Shown piece by piece: positions 703 through 55,386 of a DNA stretch of 64,000 bases (positions are counted from its first letter, which is position 1; every line of letters begins with the position of its first letter). The position numbers and the translations under genes were made by a program. Source of the stretch: Diphasiastrum complanatum. Its lineage: Eukaryota > Streptophyta > Lycopodiopsida > Lycopodiales > Lycopodiaceae. The notes under the pieces were generated by a model. That model worked only from the letters and a program-made list of their open reading frames with translations, was not told where the DNA came from and did no database searches. The stretch lies in NCBI GenBank assembly GCA_029204225.1, contig CM055103.1, forward strand, positions 43,842,604 to 43,906,603, written 5' to 3'.

Positions 703-732
703 CATTAGAGGAGTTTCGAGCACCAAAAGGGC
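703..732 (+). repeat. left terminal inverted repeat
   Basis: It begins CATTAGAGGAGTT and continues to CCAAAAGGGC. It matches the reverse complement of 10332-10361 at 26 of 30 positions, including the first 13 in a row. The inner end overlaps a near-perfect palindrome, CAAAAGGGCCTTTTG (about 724-738). Confidence 0.8.
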
Positions 733-1121
733 CTTTTGTCAAAATGCGGTTTTTGACTTTTCAACTATTGACGTACACTTGGCCCAGTTATATATTTACA
801 TCTGTGAAAGACCGTAATGTTGTTTGCCGGTCGATTTCTTTTTTGGAACTTTTCGGTCATATTTTTATACAAATTAAAACTCCCGCCGGGTAGGGTCCTG
901 ACTTGTAATTGGACCGTAATTGTTGTCCGTGAGTTTCCTGAGTGCCCGGGACCTAACACTTGTGGTTAAAGTAGGTCTATTTTGATCTAACCATAGTTAG
1001 AATAGCATATATGATTTACGAAAGACCGTCAGCATTTATTACAAATTTGGTTATTTATTTTCATACTGATTCAGCTACATTTTGTTTCAAACTCTGTTGT
1101 TCATCTTCTTTTAGCTTTGCA

Positions 1122-2490
1122 ATGGCTTCTAGAAGCCGTAGACCGCAAAGCAATATTGTCTCAATTTTTGTTTGTAATGATAAAGACTTTGATGGCTCTT
1201 GGATACTAAATATCTATAGAAAATTTTACTAAGAACTCATGCATTCCTCATCAAGAGGTATTTTTGGTAAAAAGAGAAAATCAAATATGGATTATAGGAA
1301 TTTTTGAAAAGGTAGAATTTTAGACTTCAAAGTTTTACCTGGAGGTCGAAACATTTCAAAGATCTTGATTCAACATGTCTACATGCATAAGGAAATTAGA
1401 GTGGAAGGTGTAAGTTCAAATGACAGACTCAAATGCAATTGTAAGTTTTGGAGAATTTTTTGCTTTGAGCTTTGCATTAATCATTTAGACGTGTATCTGA
1501 GTTTTTAAATGGCATATAATTTTATGGATTTGTGTAGACTGGTATCCATCAAGCATTATCGAATGGCAACCTATACAATCCCTTGTCGGCATCATGGGCG
1601 TCATTCATTCTGATATTGGTCTTCTGCAATACAAGAACCGCTCTGGATTCTTGTATTTTCTTCTATGATTCATTTTACACACCATCCAGTTTAGGTGGAA
1701 AATTAGAGGTGATATCATTACCCTCTTTCTCAAGCAAAGAATGGATTTCTCCAAATTCCACCATAGCAGAGAGCTTCTGATCAAGGTTTTTTATGGACAT
1801 TCAAAACTATATGAAATGTAGCACAGGTTCAAAAAACAATAGATTGCACTGATTTTTGCCTATTGCAATATTTGTTGATTTTTTTGTTGAATGTAATATT
1901 CGTAGAACAGTGACAATGTTTATTTGTAGTGATTTAACAGACAATATTTTATCAAGCCTCCTTGATGATCATTGGGATAAAAGAGTAATGGCAATATTGA
2001 GTGCATAGTTAATGGATCGTCAATGAAATTTAGATATCTTATAGAAAAACAAGTGCTTTCTTTAACATTTTATTATAGAAGATGGTCCAAAGTTGGCAAT
2101 GGATGAAAAACATTGGATTAGGATTTTACAGTGAATCATCAAGATCAAATAGAAATCCAAGTGAGGAAAAATAATTCTACTCTTACAGCAATTGAGGTGG
2201 AAGAAGATTGGACACTCGATTACATTCGATTATAGCTTACATTGTTGCAATATGATACTCCTAAACACTTCTGTTTTCGAGTCAACGAGATATTGGTAGG
2301 TGTATGTGTATTTATTTCAGTTTACATTTGAAATGACTTTCAATGATTTTATTTAAACATGTTTCAGTGTTTTCGGTATTGCAATATTTCATTTAACATA
2401 ATCTTAATGTTAATATTGTTTAACAAGTTTCTTTGATGTACAGGTAAGACCAAGACAAGAAAGTCTCATAGAGTGCAAGGACTTAAATAG
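1122..2490 (+). pseudogene. unknown protein of the H3-ULP1 transposon, decayed, spliced
   Basis: I do not recognise this protein. From ATG 1122 (MASRSRRPQ) one frame runs to 1440 with two in-frame stops (TAA about 1230, TGA about 1305). The residues after each stop look like protein (GRILDFKVLPGGRN, KILIQHVYMHKEIRVEG). A GTAAGT donor at 1441 joins to an acceptor ending GTGTAG near 1538, with phase kept, and reads on WYPSSIIEWQPIQSL. A later exon holds IEIQVRKNNSTLTAIEVEEDW and LLQYDTPKHFCFRVNE. The last exon ends near TAG 2488-2490, overlapping tail to tail with the end of the H3-ULP1 gene. Coding origin is supported by splice phase and continuous frame. The function is unknown; the open stretch around 1583-1780 in another frame is a shadow. 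Confidence 0.5.
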
Positions 2491-4339
2491 ACATTTCAAT
2501 CAAAGGTGCCTGAGGCATATCCTCGAGCACTGTAACCTCATCCACAGATCCCCTGGCAGGTTCATCCGAGGCACCTTCATGCTTGTAGGGCCTTGCACAC
2601 AATAGTAAGATTTTCAACATTTCATGCCGATACTGATGAATCGCATTTGTTGATACCGCAGGAACTGCAAGATAAAATATCGAGTGTATGTATGTATTAG
2701 CCAATGATTTAAAAAATATAAATTTACAAAGTTAACAATATATCATCAGGATACTGGAACATTGAAAAAAATACCTCACGGATACTAGCATCTGAAGGTT
2801 GCACCATATACCAATCCAAGAACGATTTAACATTCCAGATTGAATACCATCCACAGCTGAAAGCATCGTCTTGTTGCAAAGATTGAGAAATCACAACGAA
2901 AAATTGTTAAATTATAATTCAATATAATTCTAAACTCCATGCCATCATGCAAATAAAATATGTAAAAAGATTCTTTTTACCTTTGCATCAACAACCTCTA
3001 TGTTGGTATTTACAATCAGCCCATCCGGCATGGGCAATAGCTCCACCATCCTTTTGTACATGGATTTAACCATGGAATGGGTGGCATGCAAAGAATTCAT
3101 TGTCATGCACACAGGTGTGCAGCTTCCAGTCGAATCCACTTTCATGGATATGACGTGCACACTCCAATGTTTTCTGCCAGAAAATGACAAGCAATGAATT
3201 ACTAGAATCTATGAGTTTCCAAAAGACAAATCTTACAGAAAACAAATATTACAAGAAGAAACTATCTTACTTTGAACAGTATGGGATGATGAACATTGAT
3301 GCCTCCTTGCTAGTGTGCCTGAAGAGCCTTCTGGCTTTCCTCTCTTTATTCAACAGATGCCCAAAAAATGGAGATACAACAAAAATTTCCTTCGTGACTG
3401 TATATGTATATATATGTACATAGTATGCACAAGCAGATTCAACTATTGTGTCTGAGATATATGAGGTCTTCTCTTTTAGCTCCCTACAATGCTGGTCTTT
3501 GATATGCATTGCAAAATTAATATCGTCTATACAAAACATAAACTCCCCTCCGAGATCATCTATTTTCTTGGCTATATACAGATCAAAATCAATGTACCTC
3601 TCAAAATCAAAAAATGTGTCTTTAGGTTTATTTGGAAGTCTGATGTGCAACTCTTTATCAGTTGCATCAACGTCAGAAACAATCATGTCCACCACTATAT
3701 TTAGGTCATTCTCATGTATAGAAGGAGAATTGTGCAATTGAAGATCAGGGGTTACGGGAGGACTCTCAACTAGTGGAATTGCGGATGTACTAGCCAGATC
3801 TTTTCTAATGGGAGGAGGTGAGGGTGAAGAGCTGGGAGACCTGGGCTTGGGTTGCGAACGCTTGGGCTGTGCTTGCTTTCTCTTTTTGCGAGGTGGGACA
3901 GGCCTGCTTTTAAGAGAAACTCGCCTCTGTGTGAATCCAAACTTAAATATGCTGTCATAGGTGTTTCGAAGCCTCATGACAAGAAGCATGTCCTTGGGCA
4001 TCAATGTCACCCTCTTGCCATGAATGGAGCACAACATCAAATCCTCAAACAATTTTGTCTGCAAGTCCTCGTATGCAGTATGGAGGGCTCCAATGAAGTG
4101 ATATTCCACCTCACTGCATAGGGCAGATGGGTGGTCATATCTTGTGTAACCTCCCTCACAGCCCGGTAGAAGGCTGCTTTTGGGATCAGAAGTTTGGTTC
4201 TCCTCTGCAAGGCCCTGATGGCTCTCAACCATGGACGGCGCGGTCTTCCACGTCTTTGCGGACGTACGGGTTTAGATGTCTGGGGATGGGACGGTTGAAC
4301 AAAAGTGGTAAGCCTAGCGGTTTGCTTCGTCCGAGCCAT
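2483..4339 (-). CDS. histone H3-fold protein fused to a ULP1/C48-like cysteine protease
   Basis: The start (4339) reads MARTKQTAR, identical to the canonical H3 tail through R8, then diverges (LTTF; K9 lost). An H3 fold follows: the alphaN-alpha1 region includes LLIPKAAFYRAVREVTQ; after one frameshift near 4125, alpha2 reads GALHTAYEDLQTKLFED, then LCSIHGKRVTLMPKD and alpha3. LLIP and a long loop 1 recall plant CenH3. Next comes a basic, Pro/Ser-rich linker (PPRKKRKQ), then a protease region: FIIPY, His in KHWSVHVISM (3167-3169), Asn in TMNSL at the acid position (3095-3097), Gln in QQDD, Cys in FSCGWY (2853-2855). Donor 3270 joins acceptor 3174 in phase, rebuilding a Lys codon. Further introns start at 2980 and 2774. 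The end is either TGA 2614-2616 (phase-consistent) or TAA 2483-2485 (longer frame). Likely role (inference): a chromatin-directed deSUMOylase-like or processing protease of the transposon. Confidence 0.8.
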
Positions 4340-4400
4340 TGAGGCCGGATATCTATACCACGCAAGGACAGAGACACAGTAGAAGAGACACTGAGAACTC

Positions 4401-5360
4401 TAACGGTGATATCACTACGATGCGAGAGAGTGGCAGAGTTAGGCGGGGAGACGTAGGGGCTCGTGTGATTACGATACTGGGAAAGTCAGGCTGATATTGC
4501 TACGACGCGAGAGGGTGTAAGGAACAGGCATGGGGACGAGGTCGCTCGCGTGATGGCAATATCACGAATGCAGGTCGTATGGAAGCAATCAAACGTGACA
4601 GCAAATTATGCGAAAACCTGTACAATCCCTGGAAATGGACCTATATAGGGGTAAAAAGTTGGCACGTGTGAATACCAACGACACGTGGCCCAGTCAGTAG
4701 CTAACATGTGGAACCACATGTCTATATATGCATGTGTGAAACTGCATGTTTGGATCAACATGTGTGGGATCCCACGTGGGGACACATGGCCGAATGGATT
4801 AGTGACATGTGTTCTCGCACGTATAGGCTCGCACGTGTGGTCACGTGGCCCAATCAGTACCTAACGTGTGGGGCCACACTTCTGTATCTGCACGTGTGAA
4901 ACTTGCATGTGTGGCCATGTGGTCGAATGGTTTGGTGACATGTGTTCTGGCACGTGTTAGCTCGCACGTGTTGGCACATGGCCGAATGGCAGATTGACGC
5001 GTATTGTAGCACGTGTGGTCTCGCACATGTGGACGGTTGTACTACATGCCATAGATCTGATCCGTTGTTGGATCGACAAGTGTACGGCTTGGATTTTATT
5101 GGTTTTAGCTATATAAATATTGTTTGATCAGTTAAAACATTTTGCTAAGTTTTGGATTTTCACTCCTTGTAGCTCTTTGTGTGTGAACACTACTATTTCT
5201 TTGCAGTATCGCTACCACGTGAGAATCTTTCATAGATTCTAGACAATCTAAGATCCCTTGCGTCGTTCCGATATCAGGTCATTCACCAATATTCCCATCA
5301 CGCGAGGATTTCCAGATTGTCTTCTTACTCCTTGCCACCCCGCGTCGTAGCGATACTCGG
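4401..5360. promoter_or_regulatory. bidirectional promoter between two divergent transposon genes
   Basis: Two opposed TATA boxes frame the region: CTATATAGG at 4641-4649 for the minus-strand H3-ULP1 gene (about 300 bp before its ATG), and CTATATAAAT at 5109-5118 for the plus-strand gene (about 270 bp before its ATG). A CACGTG-type array fills the space between. Both leaders carry the motif CG(C/T)(G/A)TCGTAG(C/T)(G/A)ATA in the sense of their own transcript: 4408-4426 and 4492-4512 on the minus strand, 5341-5357 on the plus strand. A reversed copy lies at 5206-5219. The layout suggests joint control of both genes. Confidence 0.6.
4663..5040. repeat. dense CACGTG / ACATGTG array with imperfect tandem units
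   Basis: CACGTG, CATGTG and ACGTGTGG words occur every 10-25 bases. Larger imperfect units repeat, each with (C/A)ACGTGTGAA-CTGCATGT, a (C/G)CCGAATGG-like word, TGACATGTGTTCT and CTCGCACGTG. For example, about 4726-4890 is echoed by 4893-5000. CACGTG is the plant G-box core bound by bZIP and bHLH factors. An array this dense between divergent genes could instead bind an element-encoded protein. Confidence 0.7.
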
Positions 5361-5382
5361 CCCTACTAGTCATACTTTCGAG

Positions 5383-6562
5383 ATGGCCGCCTCATCCTCT
5401 AATACTTTTGATTTTGCGTTGCACGCCTTCCTCGTTGAATCTGGTGCTGGTAACTACATAGGTCACTATAAGACGTATTTCAATATGACTTTTGATATTG
5501 AGAGGTTTGGATTAGAACATAAATCCTATTTTCCAACGTTGTATAAAGAGTATTATGATAGTCTGAATTAGTCTATGTTAATAATGGATAATCTACGATT
5601 CAGTACTTGTCCAACCATCTTCCAAGCAAAGCCACAACCGACGATTCACAAAAATTGTGAGTGATTTTAAACGCGTGGTTCATTGTGACCAGCACAATCG
5701 ATCATGTCATTTTTTGCAGGAAGGCATGGGCTTTGTGTTTTATCTTTCTGCTCTTGTTCCTGAGGAGGCAAGAACTTTGAGGCTTAGCATTAAGGGTGCC
5801 TCATCATCAACTAATTCTATGATATCAGAGTCAACTATTGTTGATGACGCCTTGGGTGCTGACGAGGAGGCAAGATTGGCATCAATGTACGACCTAGCCG
5901 AGTCTCGTGCATTGTCCATTTCTTTCGTATCTGACGTGCATCCATATGACAAAACCAAGACTCTCCTCAATTTGCCAGTGTATTACATGAATAGTGTCTC
6001 ATACCTCTCACTGAATGATGTTGGAGATGTTCTTGATCTGAGGGAGGACGAAATATTATCGATTTTGTCTAATTTCATCAAAGAATTTGGGGACTTCATA
6101 GATCTCGATGGTGATGATGATCTACGTGCTTCTATTGATTACAAAGATGGAGATGAATGGATGGATGGGACTGAAGCACTACAGTCAATCATGTCTGAAA
6201 GTAGGGCATACCAGACAAATTTACCCTATGAGGAGGAATTTTTGAAAATCCGAAGCAGATATGTGTCACGTGGTCTTCGGAAACTAGTCCATCCAGTGCT
6301 TCGATGACCATTGTTGCTGGTCATGATCTACATACTGCTGCACTTATTGAAGCTGATGGTAGGTAAATCAAGTTTTATTTAATGAGATTTTTATTGAAAT
6401 GTAGTTATTTTGTTTATCAAGACATGTGACCTTTGCTCGTATTTTACAGGCTACTGTGGAGGTGGATGCCTTTGCAACAAGGCATGGATATTTGAGAGAA
6501 GGCCAGGGATCACGACAAAGGGATTCATCCCTGTCCAATTATTTGAAGTGCTTTATAAATAA
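5383..6562 (+). CDS. unknown acidic protein of the H3-ULP1 transposon, 3 exons, disrupted
   Basis: I recognise no domain. The first exon starts at ATG 5383 (MAASSSNTFDFALHAFLVES) and stays open to a TAG at 5569. A shift of frame is needed to reach NRRFTKI before the GTGAGT donor at 5657. The acceptor TTTTTTGCAG ends at 5719 and opens a long exon (EGMGFVFYLSALVPEEAR) rich in Asp and Glu (DFIDLDGDDDLR). Before the donor at 6359 the frame changes again, to MTIVAGHDLHTAALIEADG. This splices in phase to the exon at 6450, giving a Cys-rich YCGGGCLCNKAW and a stop at 6560-6562. It diverges from the H3-ULP1 gene and shares its promoter region, so the two products may act together. The two frame breaks may be decay or unseen introns. 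Confidence 0.5.
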
Positions 6563-7043
6563 AGAGATTTGCATTCATCATAACAAAGTTTCTTTAGATG
6601 CTGCGACAATAATAATGGCAATTAAAGTGTTATCCTATTTCTCAAACGGGCATAAATACCCTCCGAATACATATAAATTTATTTTTGCGAAGAGAGACAT
6701 TGTCGTATAAGTATTTGGCTATGTAGCTAAGGAAGTTCCGAAAAGGTCTTCCTCTTTAGTTCTGGATACATTGACTTGAGCAAAAGAAGATCGATTGATT
6801 TTATAGATCCATATGATAAAAAAAAATTTCTTCATGACCACACAACAAAGTTGATCATTAAAGACAAAGAGAAACAATGATTTTGCCTTGCATTGTACTA
6901 CAAATGATGCGATATAATACATATACTTTTTTCGTCTGATATCATGAAAATTACTATGGGTTGAGTCTTGCATCAATATTATTTTCGTCTATAAATTTGC
7001 ACGCCTTTATGAATTTCTAATAATTTGTTGATCTAGTTTTATA
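6563..7043. other. gap between convergent transposon genes
   Basis: AT-rich sequence between the end of the unknown plus gene and the last exon of the transposase. The frames at 6426-6710 and 6719-6976 are shadows without domain signal. Probably 3' untranslated sequence of both genes. Confidence 0.4.
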
Positions 7044-9676
7044 TCAGATTTGAATACACCTCTAGAACCATTGAAATAGCTGGATGATGTAACTATTTTT
7101 TTGAGATGTTCCACCGTGTTGTGTATTTTGATGAAATGCTGCTCTGGCTTGCCAATGCGATTTCTCCATTCCTTGTGATGACCAAATACTTAGACTGCCA
7201 TAAGCTTTTGCAAAAAATGATGCATGATGTCATCAAATGTGCTGCAATATTAGAGATACATATAATGTCATATTAATCATTTTAAATTTAGCATATGTGC
7301 AATGAGATTATAAATCGAAGAGTTAGTTACATTGAAAAGAGATTTACCATATAATGCGTAATATGATCTTCACCCCAGACATCTTTAACTACATCCACAA
7401 ACTCAATTGTTGATTTCTCAATTAGTAGGACATTAGTATCAGACAGTTTATCTTTTCTGAGCAATTTGACCATGTTGTCAAGCTTTGTCCAGACTTCAAC
7501 TTTTTTAATCCTCATTGTTCCTTTTTCTTCGAAATCCTTTGTGGCATTGAGTACATCTATCCAAATTGAGTACTAGATTTTAGTTGGTTTTCCGGAATGA
7601 TTTGATAAGAAACGACGAGCTTTGGATCCTCCTATACTTGGTTTGCATGGGATGTTTCCCGTTTTCCCTGAAAGCTTCTCGTCATTTTGTATTTTAACGT
7701 GTCCTTTATGAAGTCCCGCTTTTGATAAAACTTCTTCCAATTGAGCTATTGCCTTTTTGGCTAATGACTCTGGCTTAGTATTCCAAGCAAACCAAATATG
7801 AAGGTATGTCAATTTTTTGATAATTCTAACCTCTCCATGTAGTGTACAAATGTGAACATTTTTAAGTGGAGTCGGTAAGACTGGTTTCCAAGTCGGATCT
7901 TCTATATCCCTTGAAACTCATGTGCTCTTCGACATGTCATGTGTAGTTTTCATGCAATAGAGGCATGGATGTTTTGAATTTGCTCCATGTGAGACGTTGA
8001 ACATGCACTTCAACGACTTCAGGTCTCCAACCAAATGCCATTCCACCTTAAAATCACCTATTCCAGGAACATTGAGTGGTGTGTCGCTCATATGATTCTT
8101 AATTATCTCTGGATATTCTGTTTTACTAAAAATCCAAAATAGAATGTCATGATCTTCTTTTAAAACTTGTTTGAAACACAAAATCATGAACTATTTTAGG
8201 AGAATTGAACTCAGACCTATAATAACAAAACAATATTAGCTCAAAAGACAAAACCATTAATTCTCGAAATGAATTAGTTGCTAGTACTCAATAGAATAGA
8301 TTTAAACCTGGAAAGCTGCCAACCACCAAATATTATTTTTGGACTGCACACTGAAATCAAGACTCTCCGAGTTTATCGTATTGCTTAATGCTCCATTCAT
8401 AAGTGTAACACTAACCCTTTCCAGATTTTGTCCCTTTATTACTTCTGATTCATCTAACTTGAGAACTAATATCAATTTTTCAGCACTTTCATTTGTGATC
8501 CCATAAAACTTTACAATAAATCTCAGTAAATGATTCAGATGTACAAACATATTGTTGGTAGAATGACAAAGTGTCATGTTTTGAGTTATAAATTTCATTT
8601 ATATGGTAAGGAGTACCAATGATGTTTTACAAACCCCTGTTTAACACATCCATCTCTAATTTGATTTGAAAGGGCCGGGGAATAGGAAATTTTTTTATAT
8701 GTACTTGTCCAAATGTCCCTTTGATAATTTTAAACATTGTGTCATATGCATCCCTGCTAATACCAGAATAATCACATGCTCCTTGTATCAATTTTTGGTC
8801 AATGATCTTGTCGACTTCGTCCATAAGGGCCTCTGCAATCTTGGACTTGATTCAAGAATATCGTTGATTTCCAAGTAGACTCATCGTTGACTTGGCTGTA
8901 AGTACTAAACTCAAAGACTTTCTAATCATGTCCTTGTCTTTCAGATTTTCATTGGTGACTAAAGCTGATCTGCAAATTAAAAATAAGATTTAGAAAAAGA
9001 AACAATTCACAACCATTGAGTGCTAGATGAAACAAAACACATGAATAGTTTAAAACATAATCTTACTTGAAAGCATATATTCTTTTTTTTCGTTGACCCC
9101 CACTTGTTGAAAGCTCGTCAATACTTTTTAAAATTACTCTTTTTTCTTATTGTTCAGTATTTTCTTCCGTAATATGTTTACTTCTACATTTATTTGACAA
9201 TATGAGGTACCCAATGTTTGTACAATTAGTCTCATATTGTCAGTTTCTTGGTTAAGGTTTAATATAATATCTTGCAAATGAGAATTATCTATCTTCAAGA
9301 TTTCATTCTCTTTTTTTGTTTGCAAAAAAAGAGTTTCTTTTTCTCGGTAGTCAGTAAGCAAACCATTCAACATATTTTCCAAACAATGGATTTTTTTCAT
9401 TGAATTACTAATGCCATAACTTTTCAATCTTTCACAATAACCCAATAGACCATTGTGTCCTTCACACAAAAACAGTATGAGTTGTGTGACCGATCTAAAA
9501 TTTGGATGTTGCATTGAGCTTGGATCGATTGGATACAAACTTCCATCAACCCATAGATCACAATGTTTCTTGTCTTACATCCTTTGGTGAGCTGGTAAGG
9601 TGGATCCTTTCAGATTTTTTCTCGACAGTGGAACATATTTTGTGGGAAGATCAATATGGAGATGATATTTAGACAT
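7044..9676 (-). pseudogene. DDE transposase with RAG1/Transib-like motif order, decayed, 4 exons
   Basis: Likely exons: 9676-9067, 8969-8308, 8190-7348, 7241-7044, with GT..AG ends, about 770 codons. Start MSKYHLHIDLPTKYV. A coiled-coil stretch (KENEILKIDNSHLQDIILNL) lies in exon 1. Exon 2 has LILVLKLDESEV (first Asp, 8452-8454). Exon 3 has EWHLVGDLKS (second Asp, 8023-8025), then HPCLYC (C-x2-C) and ICTLH. It ends WGEDHITHYM. Exon 4 has WSSQGMEKSHWQ with the final Glu at 7164-7166. D, D, CxxC, H, E is the order seen in RNase-H transposases such as RAG1/Transib; membership is my inference from motifs. Breaks: in-frame stops at 9575, about 8867, 8630, about 7918, 7573, about 7230 and 7062, and frameshifts near 9140 and 8490. 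It is therefore inactive here. Confidence 0.68.
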
Positions 9677-9765
9677 CTTTATAATCGATAGATTAATCCA
9701 GTAGGAAACCAACTTGTTATATATTTTGTAAGCTATTAAAACTCGTCTTAATTAAAAAAAATTAA

Positions 9766-10038
9766 TTGGAAAAGTTTGAAATGACCTTGGCGCTCTTTTT
9801 GATCCATCACACTCCATGTTTCTTGCTTTATATGCAAAATCAAAGCTTTGCAGTTATGAGCAAAATAAGCAAAATATTTTTTCAATAGATGTGTGTTGAA
9901 ATTGCAAATTTTTGAATTGCAAAAGTTTGAAATAACCTTGCCACTCCATTTGATCCAAGACACTCTGTATTTTCCGAATTGCAAAAATTTAGATTCACGT
10001 TGGCGCTCATTGTGATCCAAAATATTCAAAGTTTCTTG
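9766..10038. repeat. three subterminal direct repeats of about 60 bp
   Basis: Units start near 9766, 9916 and 9978. Each carries TTG(C/G)AAAA-(G/A)TTT(G/A)(G/A)A, then a core like CTTGGCGCTC and TGATCCA, and two continue to GTTTCTTG. They sit between the transposase start and the right terminus, where DNA transposons often place transposase-binding sites. Confidence 0.6.
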
Positions 10039-10331
10039 ACATAATTTTCAGATCGATAAGACTGTTTTCCTTTGATGTGAATGCTTTGAGTAGATGGAAA
10101 GAAACTTTGATGTGCAATACAATTTGCATTTACATGAGAAGTTATGTTAGTTAATGGTAGAAAATAGATTCTTGAAGTATGGACCCCACGCGTTGCAGCT
10201 ACCCAACTTCCAGTTAACTACATACGTTACTAGTGAGGTCAAGTCATCGGATTTGTGCGGGTAGACCAAAAATTCGGTTGGAGTTTTAAAATCCGACGAT
10301 TTTCTCTCTCCTACGTGGCATTTGTTAGATA

Positions 10332-10361
10332 GCCCTTTTGGACCTTGGAACTCCTCTAATG
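10332..10361 (-). repeat. right terminal inverted repeat
   Basis: Read on the minus strand from 10361 it begins CATTAGAGGAGTTCCAAG and reaches CCAAAAGGGC, matching the left end at 26 of 30 positions. The flanking base run after 10361 is TAAAAGTAAC. Confidence 0.8.
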
Positions 10362-10473: not shown

Positions 10474-13400
10474 TTATTGGAACAAGAAGACAAATCCATA
10501 AGTCGATTTTTTGGTGTCGACATTGCCTACCCAATTTGCATCTGTATATTCATGAAATGTATGGATATCAAATGAATTATCATCACCATAGCAGATACAT
10601 AGGTCGATAGTAGCTCGTACATATCTGATTACCTTGAAAAGAGCTTTCCAGTGGATTATGCCATGATTGGTCATGTACTAACTCAAGGAACTAATGGCAT
10701 ATGCAAGATCGGGTCTGCTGGTCAAGATCATTGCATACATTAGGGACCCGATAATAGATTGGTATGGATAGCCCTTCATTTTTGCCTTCTCCTCATTGGT
10801 TAGAGGGCAATATTCCTTGGATAATTTAAGACCTGGATCTATACAGACTTGCAATTCATGAAATTGAATTCTATCAGCAAATTATGGAAGTACCTCTACT
10901 GGGTGATATAGAGAAGTCTTCATCTGTAGATTTGAATTCTGAGACAATAGTGCATTTCTCCTAGATCTGTCATCTCGAATTCTTGGGATAGCATCCTCTT
11001 CGTATCCTTTGTCATAGCAATATTGTTGCTGAACATCAACGTATCATCCACATAAAGTGTGATGATGACAAGAATTGATCAACATGAAATATACATTACA
11101 GTTTGTAGAGCTAGGTTGGAATCCATGATCGATCAAGAACGTGTTGATTCAATGAGACCATGCTCTGGATGATTGCTTCAGACCGTACAAAGCTTTATGG
11201 AGTTTCCATACCTAGTCTTCTTGAGCATTGAGGATGTTAGATGGCCTCCTCGATAACTCCATTGAGGAATATTGTTTGTACATCCACCTAGTGTAGCAGT
11301 CGAATAGGGGTGTGCTTGACGATTGGGCTGAAAGTTTTGAAGTAGTCGATATTGGAAATCTATGAGAATTCCCTTGTCACGAGTCGAGCTTTCCTTCTAT
11401 CGATACTACTGTCTACTTTATATTAAATCTTAAAGATCCATTTGCAATCGATTATCTTTCTGTTTGTTAGCAACTTGGTCACAGTCCATGTGTTGTTCCT
11501 CAACAGTGAGTTGTACTCCTTATCCATTGCTTTTTTTCAGAGATCTGAATCGGCCTGTGACATAGCTTCCTCAATTGTGGTTGGCTCTTGAATAGAATAG
11601 TGAAAGAACTCATCAGTATATTGAACAGGCTGAGTTCGAGTTCTTGTTGATCTTCTAGTCAAAGTTTCTGGCTACGAAATTCGACTTTGTATTGGCTGAT
11701 TCGGCTGATTCGATTGCTCTTGAGTTGTAGCTTCTTGTTATTCTTCTGAGTCTGACTATACAGGGTGACTACTGGAAGGAATAGAAATTACCTTTTGATA
11801 AGTATCAGTTGTCAGGGCAGAAATTGTAGACTACATCTGGTCATTGCCCTTCAAATAAGTAAACTGATCTTCGATAAAAGTCACATCCCTGTTAGTAAAA
11901 ACTTTACAGGTGTCTATATTGTACAGTCTATACATTCTATCAAAAGTGTAATAGCCAACAAAAATAGTCTTAAACTGCTCATCTAATTTCTTTCTATTGT
12001 CCTTTGGGACATGAGCATAAGCAGTGCGTCCGAATACTCTCAAAATTTTAATGAAAGTTTGAAACCTATCCAAACCTCATGAGGAGTTTTGCTGTCAAGT
12101 AAACCTTTAGTTATACATCGGTTCTGCACATCGCTACTGTTGATATAGCATGTTGCCAGAATGATTTAGGCAATGAAGCATGAGTTATCATGCATTTGGC
12201 ATATTCGACTAAGATCTTGTTCTTCCTTTTTGCCAGTCCATTCGATTGTGGAGAATAGGAAGTAGCAAACTGTTGTTCGATGCCGTTGGCTGAGCAATAA
12301 TCCTTGAACTCATTTGAAATGTACTCGCCGCCATTGTCGCTCCTTAGAACTTTGATTTCCATGCTTGTCTGCAACTCAGCATTTTCTTTGTATTTCTTGA
12401 AGAACTGGAAGGATTCAGATTTGTGCTTCAGAAAATATACAATAGTTCTTTTAGAATAGTCATCTATGAAGGTAATAAAGCATTTTGCACCAAGCAATGA
12501 TGGTGTTTGCATTGGGCCACATATATCAGTATGTACAATGTCTAACAAATCTTTTGAAATATGTTCTTGATTTGACTTAAATGGCCTTCTTGTCTATCTT
12601 CCCATAATACAACTTTGTCAGACAGGAGGGTCGACAATTCGATAGTCTAAATCAAGAACTGAAGAACATTTAGACATGTAGCCTATTGATACATGATTAA
12701 GGCGACCAAGTCTATAATGCCAAATTAATTCTTTATTGATAGATGTTGAATTGCTTAAAGCACGATTAGTATTACAATGACTAAGCCTATAGAGATATCC
12801 ATGCCTCTTTCCGAGTGCAAGAACTCTCCTGCTCTTATCAAGAATTTGAAAGGAATATGTCTGAAACTCTACCCTATGTCCTAAGTTTGTAATTTGACTG
12901 ACCGACAACAAATTTGTCGTCAGATTCGAGACATACAATACATTTGGTACAAGTTTCAACATTCCATTCTGAAAATTCATTCTAACAATACCTCCACCTT
13001 CAATTTTGTGGGACCTATGGTCTCCAAGGTGAACAAATTTGTTGGTGTTGTAGGCCGAATAATCGATAAACCATTCTTGATGGCTTGTCATATGTTGTGT
13101 TTCTCCATAATCGAGGAACCATTCCTCCAATTGTTCAACACGACGATGGTTCACCATGAAGACTTCCTGATATCATCGTTTTCTTCGATCTTCTGCTTTG
13201 TGTTGGCTGCATGAGCTTGTTGATCTGGTTGTTTCTTTTTGTCGTTGTTGAACTTCAAGATTCGACAATCCTGGATTTCGTGATTTGTCCTCCTGCAGTA
13301 TTTGTAGAAGAGTCTTTTCTTATTCTGAACAAGTTGTTGATCCTGGGTCTTCTGTGTCTACTGTCGACTTGTCGGACAACTTTCTTCTTCTCTTGCTTCC

Positions 13401-16835: not shown

Positions 16836-17024
16836 CCGTACAACCCAGCACCGTACGTTTTGAGCCCGTGTTCCGTATTTCCGTACTCCTCAATATAATA
16901 GCCAGCATTTCAACACACCTCTGACCTCACTCGATGGCGATGGCGATGGCGGAATAGAGAAGCAAGACGCCGATCATCTTCATCATCGCCAGAAGCAGGA
17001 ACAGGAAGGTTTGCGATCCAAGGA

Positions 17025-19016
17025 ATGGAGTTTTCTGTGATGGCATTCATCTCTGAGGCCAGGAATTGCTTCTTCTCAACCCTAATGTTAGGGTTTCTAG
17101 TGCAGCTTGCTCATGGATTTTATCTCCCCGGCAGTTACATGCATGCATATCCCAAGGGCGCTGAGCTTTGGGTGAAGGTAAACTCCCTCACTTCGGTGGA
17201 AACAGAGCTGCCTTATAGTTATTACAGCCTGCCGTTCTGCACTCCTCAGGGTGGCGTGCGCAAGAGCGTCGAAAATCTGGGTGAGCTTCTGACAGGAGAT
17301 GATATTGAGAATTCCCCTTACCGCTTCCGCATGAATGTGGATGAGTCCAACCTTGTGCTGTGTACTAAGACGCTGTCGGAAACAGATGCAAACCATTTTA
17401 AGCAACGGATCGATGACCTTTATCAGGTGAATTTGATGCTTGACAACCTTCCTGTGATAAGGTATGTTCATGCCAAAGACTCTGATTACATGTTTCCGGT
17501 AACAGGTTACCCTATAGGGTTTGCAGTAAATAAGGATTACTACTTGTCCAATCATGTCAAGTTCAAGGTGCTGATTCATGAATATGAGAATTCTGGATCG
17601 GAGTCAGTAATGGCGTTTGCAGATGGTCTAGATGCAATCCCGTCTGGTGGGGGCAAGAACATGTCTGGTTACACCATAGTAGGGTTTGAAGTCACCCCTT
17701 GCTCTTTGAAACATGATTCTAGTGTTTCTTCCAAATTGTCTATGTATGATTCGCTTCCAGATTTCAGCTGCAACCTTGATGGTCCGTATCAAATTGTTCA
17801 AGCTGGAGAGCCTGTTACTTTCTCTTATGAGGTTTCTTTCGAGAAAAGTGAGATCCGGTGGCCCTCGAGGTAGGATGCCTACCTGAGGATGGATGGTGCT
17901 AGAGTGCACTGGTTTTCTATAATCAACTCTGTTATGGTCATTTCATTCCTTGCAGGAATTGTGTTTGTAATCTTTCTAAGGACAGTTCGAAGAGATTTGA
18001 CGCGATATGAGGAGCTTGATAAAGAGGCTCAAGCTCAAATGACAGAGGAGCTTTCTGGATGGAAGTTGATCGTGGGGGATGTTTTTAGGGTTCCGCCACA
18101 TCCCAAGCTTCTCTGCATCCTTGTCGGTGATGGGGTTCGTCTTACAGGCATGGCTGTTGTAACAATCTTCTTTTCTGCACTGGGATTTATGTCTCCTGCA
18201 TCGAGAGGCATGCTTCTTACTGGAATGGTTCTTCTCTATCTATTTCTGGGAATAGCAGCAGGTTATGTTTCTTGCAGAGCATGGAAAACCCTGAATGGCG
18301 GTAATGGTGAAGATTGGAGGTCAATGTCCTGGCGATCTGCTTCTTATTTTCCAGGAATCACATTTCTTATACTTACCCTTCTCAACTTCCTTTTGTGGGG
18401 CAGCAAAAGTACAGGGGCAATACCATTCTCTCTTTACTTGATTATACTTGCACTGTGGTTTTGTATTTCTGTTCCTTTAACCTTATTGGGTGGGTATTTG
18501 GGGTCCAAACCTGAGCACATCTCCTTTCCAGTTCGTACAAACCAGATACTTCGGGAGATTCCTCGCCAGAAATACCCATCCTGGCTGTTGATAGTTGGTG
18601 CTGGGACACTTCCATTTGGTACTATTTTCATTGAGCTTTTTTTCATCATGTCCAGCATCTGGTTGGGGCGGGTATACTATGTGTTTGGCTTCCTTTTCAT
18701 TGTGCTGATTCTTTTGGTGGTTGTCTGTGCCGAGGTCTCTGTAATACTTACCTACATGCATTTATGTGTGGAAGATTGGTGTTGGTGGTGGAAAGCATTC
18801 TTCTCATCTGGTTCTGTTGCACTTTATGTTTTTCTGTATGCAGTCAATTATTTGGTTTTTGACTTGCACAAGCTGAGTGGATCCGTATCAACAATTCTCT
18901 ATATTGGATATTCATTGCTCATGGCACTTGCCCTCATGATAGCAAGTGGCACTATTGGGCTCCTTGTGTCTTTCTATTTTGTGCATTATCTCTTTTCGTC
19001 GGTGAAGCTTGACTGA
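17025..19016 (+). CDS. TM9SF/EMP (nonaspanin) protein, one internal TAG
   Basis: Intronless frame of 664 codons with an internal TAG at 17871-17873 (codon 283) where the family has Trp (WPSR-stop-DAYLRM). The same frame continues to 19016, so this is one gene, not two. The start MEFSVMAFISEARN fits: a hydrophobic signal peptide follows, then the family start FYLPGSYMHAYPKG. Luminal motifs: LPYSYYSLPFC, ENLGELLTGD, IENSPYRF. After the break, VHWFSIINSVMVI opens the first of nine membrane spans, followed by DVFRVPPHPKLL and the conserved spans. The C terminus ends VKLD, a KXD-type signal known to retain EMPs in the Golgi through COPI. Length without the stop, 662, is normal. A TATAATA lies at about 16895. 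Role: Golgi/endosomal membrane protein. The TAG is a G-to-A nonsense change, a sequencing error, or a sign of a recent null allele. Confidence 0.93.
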
Positions 19017-49242: not shown

Positions 49243-49272
49243 CATTAGAGGAGTTCTAAATCCCAAAAAGTC
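49243..49272 (+). repeat. solo copy of the H3-ULP1 transposon terminus
   Basis: It begins CATTAGAGGAGTTCTAAA and continues CCCAAAAAGTCC. It matches the right terminus of the 703-10361 element at 24 of 30 positions, including the first 14. No transposon genes follow before the copia sequence at about 49565, so it is a remnant or part of a short non-autonomous derivative. Confidence 0.55.
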
Positions 49273-51417: not shown

Positions 51418-54400
51418 ATGGCATCTATAAATGCATATCTTTTGGATACTAATGAAAGGCTCAACAAAACTAACTATTCCATATGGAAAGTTAGAATGGA
51501 ATCTATCATGATCATGCAAGATCTGATGGAAATTGTAAATGGTAAGGAGGGTGAACCTATTCATCCTCAAGAAAAAGCCAAATACATCAAGAGGTGCAAT
51601 GTTGCACTACATTGCATAAAAATGAATGTTGCAAATGAACTCTTAAGAGAGGTAGGAGATTGCACTTCAGCTCAAGATGCTTGGGAGACTTTGCAAAAGG
51701 TCTATGAATCCAAGAACCAAACTAGAATGTTAGCTTTGAAGAATCAAATCTATAGAAGCTATCAAAAGAAAGGAGAGAGTGCACATACTTTTGTCCTAAG
51801 AGTAAAGGAATTGAACAAAGAGCTAGCCTTTATAGGTGACCCTATCAAGGATGAAGAGCTTGTTCAACTCATATTGAATGGACTAAGCTTTGAATTTGAC
51901 AATTTGGTTCAGGGATATGCAATTATGGGTAAGCTACCCATACTTGAAGAACTCCAAGGCACACTCATGGCCGAGGAATCAAGAAGGAGCCAAATGCAAG
52001 AGAGGATGGATAGGCTTTCCATCCAAGGTGGAGATGACCAAGCTCTCTTCACCAAAGGCAAAGGCAAGTCCAAAGGCAAAGGATCAACATTCAAGAAGTC
52101 TACAAAGCTTGAGGATCAAGAAGGACCCCCAAAGGCATCTCCATCAACCACCAAAGTCAAGAAGGACAAATCAAAGGTGAAGTGCTACTATTGTAGCAAG
52201 ATGGGGCATTATGCCTCGGAATGCTTCAAGAGGAAGCAAGATCAAAGCCAAGCCAACATGAGCAAAGAGGAGGAGGAGGAGAGTTCACATGAGGACTCTC
52301 TCATGATGTCCATATTTTCTTCAACAAGCTTCAAAGGAGAAGATCCTTGGTGGATTGACTCGGGTGCTAGTTCACACATGACTAGTAAAAGGGAGTTTTT
52401 CTCTTCTCTCTTATCTTATGATGGACCTATAAAGTCTATCTATACAGCAAATGATGAAGCTTGTAAGATTGAAGGAGTTGGTAGCATTCCCCTTTTCTTA
52501 GGATCTTCCAAAAAGATCAACATAGAAGGTGTTTTGTACATTCCTACAATAACAAAGAATCTACTAAGTGTTGGCCAAATGGTAGACAATGGTTTCAATG
52601 TTGACTTTGCTTCAAATGAATGTTTCATCAAGAAGAAGGGTAAGATAGTGGCTAAGGGCACTAGACTTGGCAAACTTTATAAGCTGGATGCATTTGTGGA
52701 TACTAATGTTGTCATGTTGGCCGAGAAGAGCAAGATATCTACCTTTACTTTATGGCACAAAAGACTTGGACATGTCAACTCGGGTTCCATGGAGGCTATG
52801 ATCAAGGAGGAGTATGCTTTAGGCCTACCAAGGTCTATTGGGAAGGAAGACAAGGTTTGTGAAGCTTGTGCCTTATCCAAGGCACATAAGAAGGTGTTTC
52901 CTAACTCCATCACAAAGTCATCTCATCCTCTTGAACTCATACACTCGGATGTGCACATTGCTAGCACCAAATCTAATGGAGGTTCATCCATGTTTTTAAC
53001 CTTCATTGATGACTACTCAAGATATTGTTGGGTGTTCTTACTTTCTTTCAAGTCTCAAGTATTTGATACTTTTGTAAAGTTCAAGTTGTTTGTGGAAAAG
53101 CATCATAATCATAGCATCAAGATTCTTAGAAGTGACAATGGTGGAGAATTCATCTCCAATGAGTTCAAGGCCTTTTGTGAGGAGGAAGGGATCAAGAAAG
53201 AGACTTCTTGTCCTTACACTCCTCAACAAAATGGAGTTGCTGAAAGAAGGAATAGAACATTATGTGAATGTTCTAAGGCTTTAAAATTAGATGCTTGTGT
53301 GCCCAAATCCTTTTGGGGTGAGTCTCTTGTATGTGCAAACTACTTGATGAATAGGGTGTCTTGCAAAGCAATTGAAGGCAAAACTCCTTATGAGATGTTG
53401 TATGGAAAGAAACCCAATCTTAATCACTTGAAAGTTTTTGGGTGTATATGTTATGTGCATGTGCCATTGGAAACAAGAACCAAGGAGGATCCATCTTCCA
53501 CAAGAGGGATCATGCTTGGATATGCAAGCTCAAGCAAGGGCTACAAACTCTATCTCCCATCCTTGAACAAATTTGTTGTTTCAAGGGATGTCATCTTTGA
53601 TGAACATCATATGCATATGCTTGAAGAAGGCTCAAGTGATCCAACAATCAAGAAGAAGATGGCCGAGGAGCAAGATCTTGGTTTTGAGGAGGAGCTCATG
53701 GAGGAGCAAGCACCAAACCCACCTATCACACCAAGGAGATCTTCAAGGGCAAAAGTGGAGCCATCAAGGCTCACATATCAAGGCAAAGGACAGCAAGTTG
53801 AGGGTATCTCATCCACTTCTTATGCTTTATCTAGTTTTGAAGAACCGTCTAATGTTGAAGATGCATTGAACTCCAAAGAATGGTATAAAGCTATGTTGGA
53901 TGAGTATGATGCCTTGATTGAGAATGAAACTTGGTTGCTTGTTGAGAGACCTCAAAGGAATGTAATAGGATGCAAGTGGGTCTTCAAGCTTAAGTTGAAT
54001 GCAAATGGGAGTGTTAACAAACATAAAGCAAGATTAGTTGCAAAAGGTTATGCTCAAGAGAGAGGGATAGACTATGAGGAAACTTTTGCACCCGTGGCCA
54101 AGATGGTCACAATAAGACTAATCATTGCACTTGCATCACATTTTGGATGGATTCTATGTCAAATGGATGTCTCTAATGCTTTCTTGAATGGTTTTTTGGA
54201 AGAGGATATCTATATGGAGCAGCCACAAGGGTTCATCAAGCATGGAATGGAGAACAAAGTATGCCATCTCCAAAGAAGCATCTATGGCTTGAAGCAAGCC
54301 TCGAGATCTTGGAATTCAAGACTACATTGCTATCTTATTTCACTTTCTTTTGTTCAAAGTGAATATGATCCCACTCTTTACATTAAGTTTGATGATGTTG

Positions 54401-55386
54401 GTATTGTACTTTTACTCATTTATGTAGATGACATCATCATTAGTGGAAATAGTGTTGATGGTATTGAAAAAATCAAGATAGATCTATCTTTAGAGTTCAA
54501 GATGGTAGATCTAGGGTGTCTTCACTTCATCTTAGGCATAGAAGTACTTAGAGGGTCTGATTTTATCTTTATAAGTCAAGTAAACTATGCTCAAAGTCTT
54601 TTGAAGAAGTTTAAGATGGAAGTATGCAAAAGTGTTGACACACCAATGGAGCAAGATGTAAAAGTGCCAAATGAAGATGATGAAAGATCCTTCATGGACA
54701 TCACTTTGTTTAGGCAACTTATAGGTTCCTTAATGTGGATCACTATAACTAGACCAGATCTTAGCTTTAGTGTATGTAGGTTGAGCCAATCCATGCAAAA
54801 TCCATTGAATATCCATTGGAAAAAGGCTAAGAGGATTCTAAGATACATCTCAGGTACATTGGATTTTGGGATTCTATATAGAGGAGATGTGATTAACCTT
54901 CATGCATTTAGTGATTCAGATTTTGCAGGGGACAAGAGGGATAGGAAATCAACAAGTGCCTATTCAACTTTCATAGGAGAAGGTGTGGTTTCATGGCTTT
55001 CAAAAAAGCAAGAAACTACATCTCTATCTTCAACCGAGGCCGAGTACAAAGCTTTGACAACCACTACAAAGGAGGTACTTTGGATCAAGAGATTATTGGT
55101 GGAACTAAAGATCATGGATTCAGAGGAGGCACCAATCATCTACAATGACAATATATCAGCCCAACACCTTGCATCTAACCCAATCTTCCATGCAAGATCT
55201 AAGCACATTGAGATATGCCATCACTTTGTGAGAGAAATGGTGCAAGCCAAGGAGATTGCTTTGGAGCATGTTCCAAGCAATGAATGTGTAGCTGATCTAC
55301 TTACTAAACCACTTCAAAAGACACCTTTTATGAAGTTCAGATCATCACTTGGAGTGATTAGTAAAGCAATGATTGAACCAAGCTAG
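51418..55386 (+). CDS. copia E gag-pol polyprotein, 1322 aa, intact
   Basis: A single frame from ATG 51418 (MASINAYLLDTNERLNKT). Order: gag (1-250) with zinc knuckle CYYCSKMGHYASEC (C256, C259, H264, C269); protease WWIDSGASSH (D314); pre-integrase LLSVGQMV and WHKRLGHV; integrase D511, D573, E609, giving the D-x35-E spacing; RT with SIYGLKQASRSWN and YVDD at 1002-1005; RNase H with FSDSDFAGD and SLSSTEAEYKAL, ending SLGVISKAMIEPS. All catalytic residues I can check are present and no stop occurs. Between the 5' LTR and the ATG lies about 800 bp of leader. The preserved frame and near-identical LTRs indicate recent movement. Confidence 0.97.
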   Translation: MASINAYLLDTNERLNKTNYSIWKVRMESIMIMQDLMEIVNGKEGEPIHPQEKAKYIKRCNVALHCIKMNVANELLREVGDCTSAQDAWETLQKVYESKNQTRMLALKNQIYRSYQKKGESAHTFVLRVKELNKELAFIGDPIKDEELVQLILNGLSFEFDNLVQGYAIMGKLPILEELQGTLMAEESRRSQMQERMDRLSIQGGDDQALFTKGKGKSKGKGSTFKKSTKLEDQEGPPKASPSTTKVKKDKSKVKCYYCSKMGHYASECFKRKQDQSQANMSKEEEEESSHEDSLMMSIFSSTSFKGEDPWWIDSGASSHMTSKREFFSSLLSYDGPIKSIYTANDEACKIEGVGSIPLFLGSSKKINIEGVLYIPTITKNLLSVGQMVDNGFNVDFASNECFIKKKGKIVAKGTRLGKLYKLDAFVDTNVVMLAEKSKISTFTLWHKRLGHVNSGSMEAMIKEEYALGLPRSIGKEDKVCEACALSKAHKKVFPNSITKSSHPLELIHSDVHIASTKSNGGSSMFLTFIDDYSRYCWVFLLSFKSQVFDTFVKFKLFVEKHHNHSIKILRSDNGGEFISNEFKAFCEEEGIKKETSCPYTPQQNGVAERRNRTLCECSKALKLDACVPKSFWGESLVCANYLMNRVSCKAIEGKTPYEMLYGKKPNLNHLKVFGCICYVHVPLETRTKEDPSSTRGIMLGYASSSKGYKLYLPSLNKFVVSRDVIFDEHHMHMLEEGSSDPTIKKKMAEEQDLGFEEELMEEQAPNPPITPRRSSRAKVEPSRLTYQGKGQQVEGISSTSYALSSFEEPSNVEDALNSKEWYKAMLDEYDALIENETWLLVERPQRNVIGCKWVFKLKLNANGSVNKHKARLVAKGYAQERGIDYEETFAPVAKMVTIRLIIALASHFGWILCQMDVSNAFLNGFLEEDIYMEQPQGFIKHGMENKVCHLQRSIYGLKQASRSWNSRLHCYLISLSFVQSEYDPTLYIKFDDVGIVLLLIYVDDIIISGNSVDGIEKIKIDLSLEFKMVDLGCLHFILGIEVLRGSDFIFISQVNYAQSLLKKFKMEVCKSVDTPMEQDVKVPNEDDERSFMDITLFRQLIGSLMWITITRPDLSFSVCRLSQSMQNPLNIHWKKAKRILRYISGTLDFGILYRGDVINLHAFSDSDFAGDKRDRKSTSAYSTFIGEGVVSWLSKKQETTSLSSTEAEYKALTTTTKEVLWIKRLLVELKIMDSEEAPIIYNDNISAQHLASNPIFHARSKHIEICHHFVREMVQAKEIALEHVPSNECVADLLTKPLQKTPFMKFRSSLGVISKAMIEPS

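Follow-up and report, generated by a model that had tools for sequence, protein, structure and literature searches.

Does a stretch of plant DNA encode a histone H3 joined to a SUMO-type protease and, if so, what kind of gene carries it and what might the protein do? The question was raised by a window of 64,000 nucleotides from Diphasiastrum complanatum (contig CM055103.1, positions 43,842,604 to 43,906,603), the whole stretch of DNA analysed here, for which the original prediction proposed that an H3 fold and a ULP1/C48-type protease form a single transcript unit. The fusion of H3 to a C48 domain, and its origin in a transposon, we now regard as very nearly certain.

The gene occupies four exons on the minus strand of the window. 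An H3-type tail and fold are encoded by exon 1 (3271..4339), which continues through a basic linker into the N-terminal portion of the protease region; the fold, from alpha-N to alpha-3, lies at approximately 3970..4240. Exon 2 (2981..3173), with splice sites common to the copies, carries the catalytic His (KHW) and an Asn at the acid position (MNSL), exon 3 (2775..2882) carries the oxyanion Gln and the catalytic Cys (QQDDAFSCGW), and exon 4 (2483..2664) encodes a C-terminal extension. The proposed protein start, MARTKQTAR, was found at 4339, and the His, Asn, Gln and Cys motifs of the protease were all present as described. From 4339, the reading frame begins MARTKQTARLTTF and enters the first half of the H3 fold, while a second frame contains the other half, the basic linker and the start of the protease region. 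Both halves matched the Pfam Histone family, PF00125 (frame 4040-4399, 1.6e-8, 35.2 bits; frame 3270-4271, 4.9e-9, 36.9 bits), in keeping with the predicted fold, but they sit in different frames, which the original prediction had left unmentioned.

Relatives of the gene carry one extra base near 4087, indicating that the window copy is frameshifted inside the H3 fold. A splice or a programmed shift between the two halves was ruled out, since most relatives read through in a single frame at this point; for the same reason, we attribute the shift to a one-base deletion in the window copy. The donor GT at 3270 follows the last base of exon 1 (3271), and the acceptor AG extends to 3174, just before exon 2 begins at 3173; the join preserves phase. 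The Cys exon has lost its acceptor AG, 7 nt are missing at the start of exon 4 as compared with the relatives, and ~280 bp are deleted near the 3′ end, these deletions altering exon 4. Judged by its sequence, the window copy is a pseudogene of a multicopy transposon gene.

A search of the genome with the exon of the window family, family A, returned at least 123 rows, ten of which were free of stops and had a frame open over at least 350 aa, enough for both H3 halves and the linker. Thirty-three sequences, including that of the window, were gathered, and 26 rows were aligned once 7 near-duplicates had been removed. The first donor is GT in 24 of these 26 rows and the first acceptor is AG in 23 of the 25 rows with letters at that position (the window counted). 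In one natural copy, L021, the frame is uninterrupted through the four exons and encodes a protein of 517 aa, in which a MARTKQT start is followed by the H3 fold, the basic linker and the C48 domain. L021 matched Pfam Histone at 2.6e-23. Five family-A copies were scanned for Peptidase_C48, for which the curated cut-off is 20.7 bits: L028 and L030 passed (27.7 and 23.1 bits; 2.9e-6 and 7.6e-5), L022 fell below the cut-off (14.7 bits), and L021 and L025 gave no match.

Two further families were found. A provisional CENH3 fold, used as the query, gave 13 top-scoring matches, and then at least 137 further H3-like places. L091, the one fetched of the 13, is a canonical H3; five of the further places were fetched, three of which belong to family C, one to family B and one (L086) to another kind. 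A host CENH3 was not isolated among the matches listed in this search. The family B copy, L090, also begins MARTKQTARLTTF and has the architecture of family A, with 53% identity over exon 1. Searching with family B gave at least 120 matches (112 candidates scored), and 8 of them, the query included, cover positions 1-364 without a stop. The family C copies (L087-L089) have H3, linker and C48 exons; their tail is MDRRKQTRR, not ARTKQTAR, interrupted in two of the three copies. The phase of the exon 1/exon 2 junction is identical in families A, B and C (NKHWS, NKHWS and NGHWS, from one copy each).

Pfam Histone matched family B at 8.5e-25 and family C at 8.9e-25, with 83-88 bits over L021, B and C, as for an H3-type histone fold. 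Peptidase_C48 matched B at 32.0 bits (1.5e-7) and C at 32.2 bits (1.2e-7), the C entry being composed of pieces of two copies. The profile search proposed as a check was thus positive for the histone and, in B, C and two of the five family-A copies, for the protease, although the ULP1 exons of the window, scanned one by one, gave no Pfam match. The fusion itself is present as one spliced frame in three divergent families, but not in intact form in the window copy that had suggested it. From the splice signals and from selection on the copies, the H3 and C48 exons would be carried on one transcript.

The window copy of the gene lies within a transposon of 9,659 bp (703..10361, given without strand) that has terminal inverted repeats at each end. 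At the outer end 703, 26 of the 30 bases of the repeat (703..732, plus strand) equal those of the other end (10332..10361, minus strand), where the 12-base start of the 703 end recurs in inverted form. With window positions 1400-1900 as a DNA query against the same genome, 40 of 1,283 candidate places were scored, all of them with a match of at least 92%. Ten of the 12 pieces fetched had the 703 end at the identical base and diverged beyond it; in another the divergence came sooner, and the last stopped short of this point. Among five other copies fetched for the 10361-type end, all five had it (up to 2 mismatches allowed), and the 703-type end was present in four of five. No target duplication, including the 8-bp duplication by which hAT elements are recognized, was found in the window copy or in the four copies with both ends. 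A single-copy host fusion gene is ruled out by these element ends, together with the family-A and family-B matches (at least 123 and at least 120, respectively).

The element carries two other genes. The second, a presumed transposase, is present in the window as fragments at 7330..9574 on the minus strand, with a coiled-coil-like part followed by exons that are conserved in relatives (~230 and 267-287 aa). It is located further upstream of the H3 gene in the element; in four compared pairs, it was 3-4 kb upstream of the H3 match on the same strand (presumed transposase / H3 match: C12:54004761 / 54008025, C11:30734056 / 30737590, C5:45537791 / 45534295 and C2:51664901 / 51668755). A 114-aa piece of it matched all 150 places scored, giving at least 150 in the genome. 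Because no Pfam family was above cut-off for the window pieces or for exon pieces of relatives, we can only infer that this gene encodes a transposase, and no informative NCBIfam match was obtained for two of its pieces. The Pfam matches obtained for the window pieces and for five exon pieces of relatives included no MULE family, in a scan that took exons singly and that a distant MULE relation could escape. In the family C copy L087, the frame of the H3 gene extends upstream into a stretch 50% identical (66 aa, 9e-22) to the presumed transposase of family A. The third gene (5383..6710, plus strand) is divergent from the H3 gene and consists of open frames of unassigned function, with no Pfam family above cut-off.

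Purifying selection has kept both halves of the protein in the line from which the copies descend, with the clearest signal between families, as indicated by pS, pN and omega values and by a comparison of shared with singleton substitutions. For the H3 fold, L021 (A) compared with L090 (B) gave a pS of 0.73, a pN of 0.20 and an omega of 0.08, and for copy C2 (A) compared with L090 the pS of 0.79 was beyond correction; within family C, omega for the fold was 0.06, 0.06 and 0.21. Between A and B, the linker was looser than the fold (omega 0.25-0.26), and the pre-protease part had a pS of 0.77-0.78 and a pN of 0.34. The protease exons gave a pS of 0.82-0.83 and a pN of 0.26-0.28 between A and B, and a pS of 0.83-0.90 and a pN of 0.45-0.47 between A and C; their omega was 0.52 between B and C and 0.11-0.49 within A. 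For L021 and copy C2, both of family A, omega was 0.31 in the fold, 0.35 in the linker, 0.57 in the pre-protease part and 0.74 in the tail. Family-A substitutions common to at least three rows numbered 75 N and 72 S, as compared with 321 and 136 for singletons (p=3.8e-5); the comparison omitted any variant present in just two rows and any column that had fewer than 12 letters. For the family-A H3 part alone, the same comparison was not significant (28/21 versus 67/36, p=0.37).

That the fold has been selected along with the protease speaks for a functional chromatin protein. Taken together with the VANC and Kaonashi precedents discussed below, this selection leads us to favour, at a little under an even chance, an anti-silencing histone variant that brings deSUMOylation to element chromatin. 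The H3 half would join H3-H4 complexes and become part of nucleosomes at the DNA of the element or close to it. There, the tail of the fusion could bear K4 marks while offering no K9, K27 or K36, the sites of plant silencing and elongation marks, and the tethered C48 domain would remove SUMO from silencing factors; the two together might keep the element transcribable. The action would be like that of VANC and Kaonashi proteins, yet would proceed by incorporation into nucleosomes and not by the binding of DNA motifs. We also put forward, tentatively and as rather unlikely in its full extent, a broader proposal: that a superfamily of transposons codes for a nucleosomal H3 variant of its own, with K4 as nearly the sole tail lysine and joined to a deSUMOylase, that it builds silencing-resistant chromatin on its own DNA, and that the variant has been kept by selection since before the three families diverged.

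The H3 half was compared with known histones. Its best PDB sequence matches were H3 chains and Schizosaccharomyces pombe CENP-A chains. Structure prediction, another proposed check, was of partial help: an AlphaFold model of exon 1 (357 aa, 14 sequences) had a mean pLDDT of 36 and was set aside, but the H3 fold modelled alone reached a pLDDT of 58, a medium confidence, and its first 40 Foldseek matches comprised 39 chains from entries for nucleosomes, CENP-A or H3 variants and one from the UAF complex. These matches had TM values below 0.5 by query length, and the assignment of the fold therefore rests on sequence. In the tail, MARTKQTARLT is common to families A and B and the remainder has diverged. 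Between K4 and the fold there is no lysine in 19 of 24 family-A rows and one lysine in the other five, the window row included; family B has none. Because it has no lysine besides K4, the typical tail is without a counterpart of K9, K14, K18, K23, K27 and K36, and the loss of K9 was thus correctly predicted. In plants, K9 and K27 of H3 carry silencing marks.

Of the whole tail, families A and B have best preserved the ARTKQTAR end, which could also be explained if the protein were a decoy or dominant negative, since this end of H3 is read by K4 readers and haspin. The H3 half would then bind and titrate H4, chaperones and K4-tail readers, the C48 domain would act in the nucleoplasm, and nucleosomal H3 would not be replaced; a bulky C-terminal domain could indeed hinder nucleosome packing. 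However, constraint on exon 1 between families is strongest over the whole fold, including H113, R116 and D123 (IHGKRVTLMPKD), which we take, in numbering and role, to be H3-H3′ contacts, and a tail decoy needs none of this. We consider a decoy unlikely, though with an appreciable chance.

The proposed deSUMOylation depends on the C48 half, for which PDB profile matches were obtained to a Ulp1-like SUMO protease (6.6e-6), SENP2 (5.4e-5) and yeast Ulp1 (4.6e-4); the alignment to Ulp1-like proteases and SENP2 also supports the placing of the His and the Asn in exon 2. This half resembles the ULP1/SENP SUMO proteases of family C48 in its His, Gln and Cys motifs and its profile match, and differs from them in its fusion to H3 and in having Asn for the catalytic Asp. 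His, Asn, Gln and Cys are at the same places in A, B and C; the canonical His-Asp-Cys triad is thus replaced in all three families, and protease activity may be changed or absent. The domain might have lost hydrolysis altogether and become a SUMO-binding reader joined to chromatin. This we consider distinctly unlikely, given that His, Gln and Cys have been kept in A, B and C and that a C-H-N triad is functional in papain, among other cysteine proteases. By that analogy, SUMO-protease activity of the C48 domain is possible, if unproven.

The element might, alternatively, have captured a CenH3, which would load at centromeres and bring the C48 domain to SUMO targets at the kinetochore, aiding transmission or centromeric insertion. 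Plant CENH3/CENP-A and the H3 half share an H3 fold, an altered tail and RW in loop 1 (A and B), and LLIP, this RW, and AYED and DS.LC (A) resemble plant CenH3. SUMOylation of aKNL2 controls CENH3 binding in Arabidopsis, according to the part of the source available (PMC12903445). In addition, 26 of the 150 listed matches to the N-terminal half of H3 are clustered at C3:18.5-21.7 Mb. The long loop 1 from which a CenH3 had been argued, however, is a 4-aa insertion confined to family A and absent in the B and C copies that were read, and the argument from it fails in those two families; loop 1 of family C has RF in place of RW. In a tree of 13 rows and 99 columns, in which the CenH3 rows other than that of S. 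pombe were provisional sequences, the transposon H3s formed one clade (85/81); the forks below it have less support (67/80 and 80/96), and the tree gives the clade no supported link to CenH3, nor does it decide between H3 and CenH3. Outside the C3 cluster, the copies are mostly dispersed over the chromosomes among the matches listed, so that centromere targeting is weakly supported, and both fetched copies of the cluster had the H3 part followed by other sequence in place of the protease. Unlike CENH3/CENP-A, moreover, the protein is fused to C48 and is multicopy on a transposon. We regard a centromeric role as very unlikely.

A functionless H3 passenger captured by chance, already disfavoured, is barely credible: fungal hAT elements provide a recorded case of H3 capture with loss of function (PMC6710886, in the part available) and most of the 26 aligned family-A copies contain stops or frame gaps, but both halves are under purifying selection across families and the phase of the exon junction is conserved.

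The favoured reading, an anti-silencing variant, has its nearest parallels among plant transposons. VANC proteins strip DNA methylation from their own elements (PMC5735166), and some of them carry ULP1 (PMC13317346), as stated in the accessible parts of these sources. The VANC proteins of VANDAL elements are transposon-encoded and relieve the silencing of their own family, an effect that would apply here by analogy; they recognize DNA motifs, and the available portion of that paper mentions no histone fold (PMC5735166), whereas the protein described here has an H3 fold. Kaonashi (KIU) Vandal MULEs are, like the present elements, plant DNA transposons with an accessory gene that has a Ulp1 domain, and they have been linked to hypomethylation of related elements (PMC13317346, in the part available). 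They are described as non-TIR MULEs, and the word 'histone' is absent from the accessible text of that review (PMC13317346); the present elements, in contrast, have inverted repeats and encode an H3 fold, and the exons scanned gave no MULE match. The hAT transposons of Dothideomycetes share with the present element a length of ~9.5 kb and an amplified H3 sequence, intronless in their case (PMC6710886). They are RIP-inactivated, have 8-bp target duplications and a hAT domain, and, in the available part of the source, come with no mention of Ulp1 (PMC6710886); in D. complanatum, the H3 forms a fusion with C48 that selection has maintained, and target duplications were looked for and not found.

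No transposon-borne H3-ULP1 fusion was found in the titles and abstracts of the open-licence literature, a body of work with subscription papers mostly outside it. Capture of H3 by transposons in fungi and of ULP1 by MULEs in plants are each known. Hosts silence transposons by means of histone marks, and a transposon-made H3 joined to a possible SUMO remover would, if the reading is true, be an answer in this arms race at the level of the nucleosome. The fusion would make it testable whether a parasite can replace the H3 of its host at its own DNA, and a natural tail with K4 and without K9, K27 and K36 would offer a ready experiment on which H3 lysines are needed for silencing.

Among the 150 listed genomic matches to the N-terminal half of the H3 fold, 26 fell in one cluster on contig C3 (18.5–21.7 Mb), and two clusters of five matches each were located at 29.9–30.2 Mb on C3 and at 49.4–49.8 Mb on contig C14. 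In both C3 copies that were fetched (L092 and L093), the H3 fold was still open and was followed directly by different sequence. Judged from these two examined copies, the C3 cluster copies are an amplified derivative carrying the H3 part only. Another H3-like frame was found in L086, one of the H3-like places fetched from the genome (1914–2600, minus strand; Pfam Histone, 3.8e-27). It carries an unrelated N-terminal extension, and inspection of the listed L086 frames by eye revealed no C48 motif.

The terminal sequence of the element recurs at window 49243–49261 (plus strand) and at sites within 219–596 of L076. In L076, a small insert bounded by two inverted ends lies within a relative of the element, so that non-autonomous derivatives probably exist. 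A palindrome of two head-to-head element arms, 95–96% identical, was observed in L066/L067 (C9, 29.90–29.91 Mb). No target-site duplication was found at the exact inverted ends, in the flanks of window 703 and 10361; a cut-and-paste element without such a duplication is unusual.

Frames at window 51418–55386 (plus strand) and 10477–13172 (minus strand) are, by their motifs, presumably Copia-type retrotransposons, one of them stop-free over 1,322 aa. The H3-carrying element adjoins the older of the two. Open frames at 16902–19016 (plus strand) resemble a host gene of the transmembrane-9 family.

The element's divergent gene (window 5383–6710, plus strand), which shares its upstream region with the H3 gene, matched no Pfam family above the cut-off. 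Between the two genes, numerous CACGTG/CATGTG-like repeats were seen by eye at window 4600–5050, which may constitute a regulatory or binding region.
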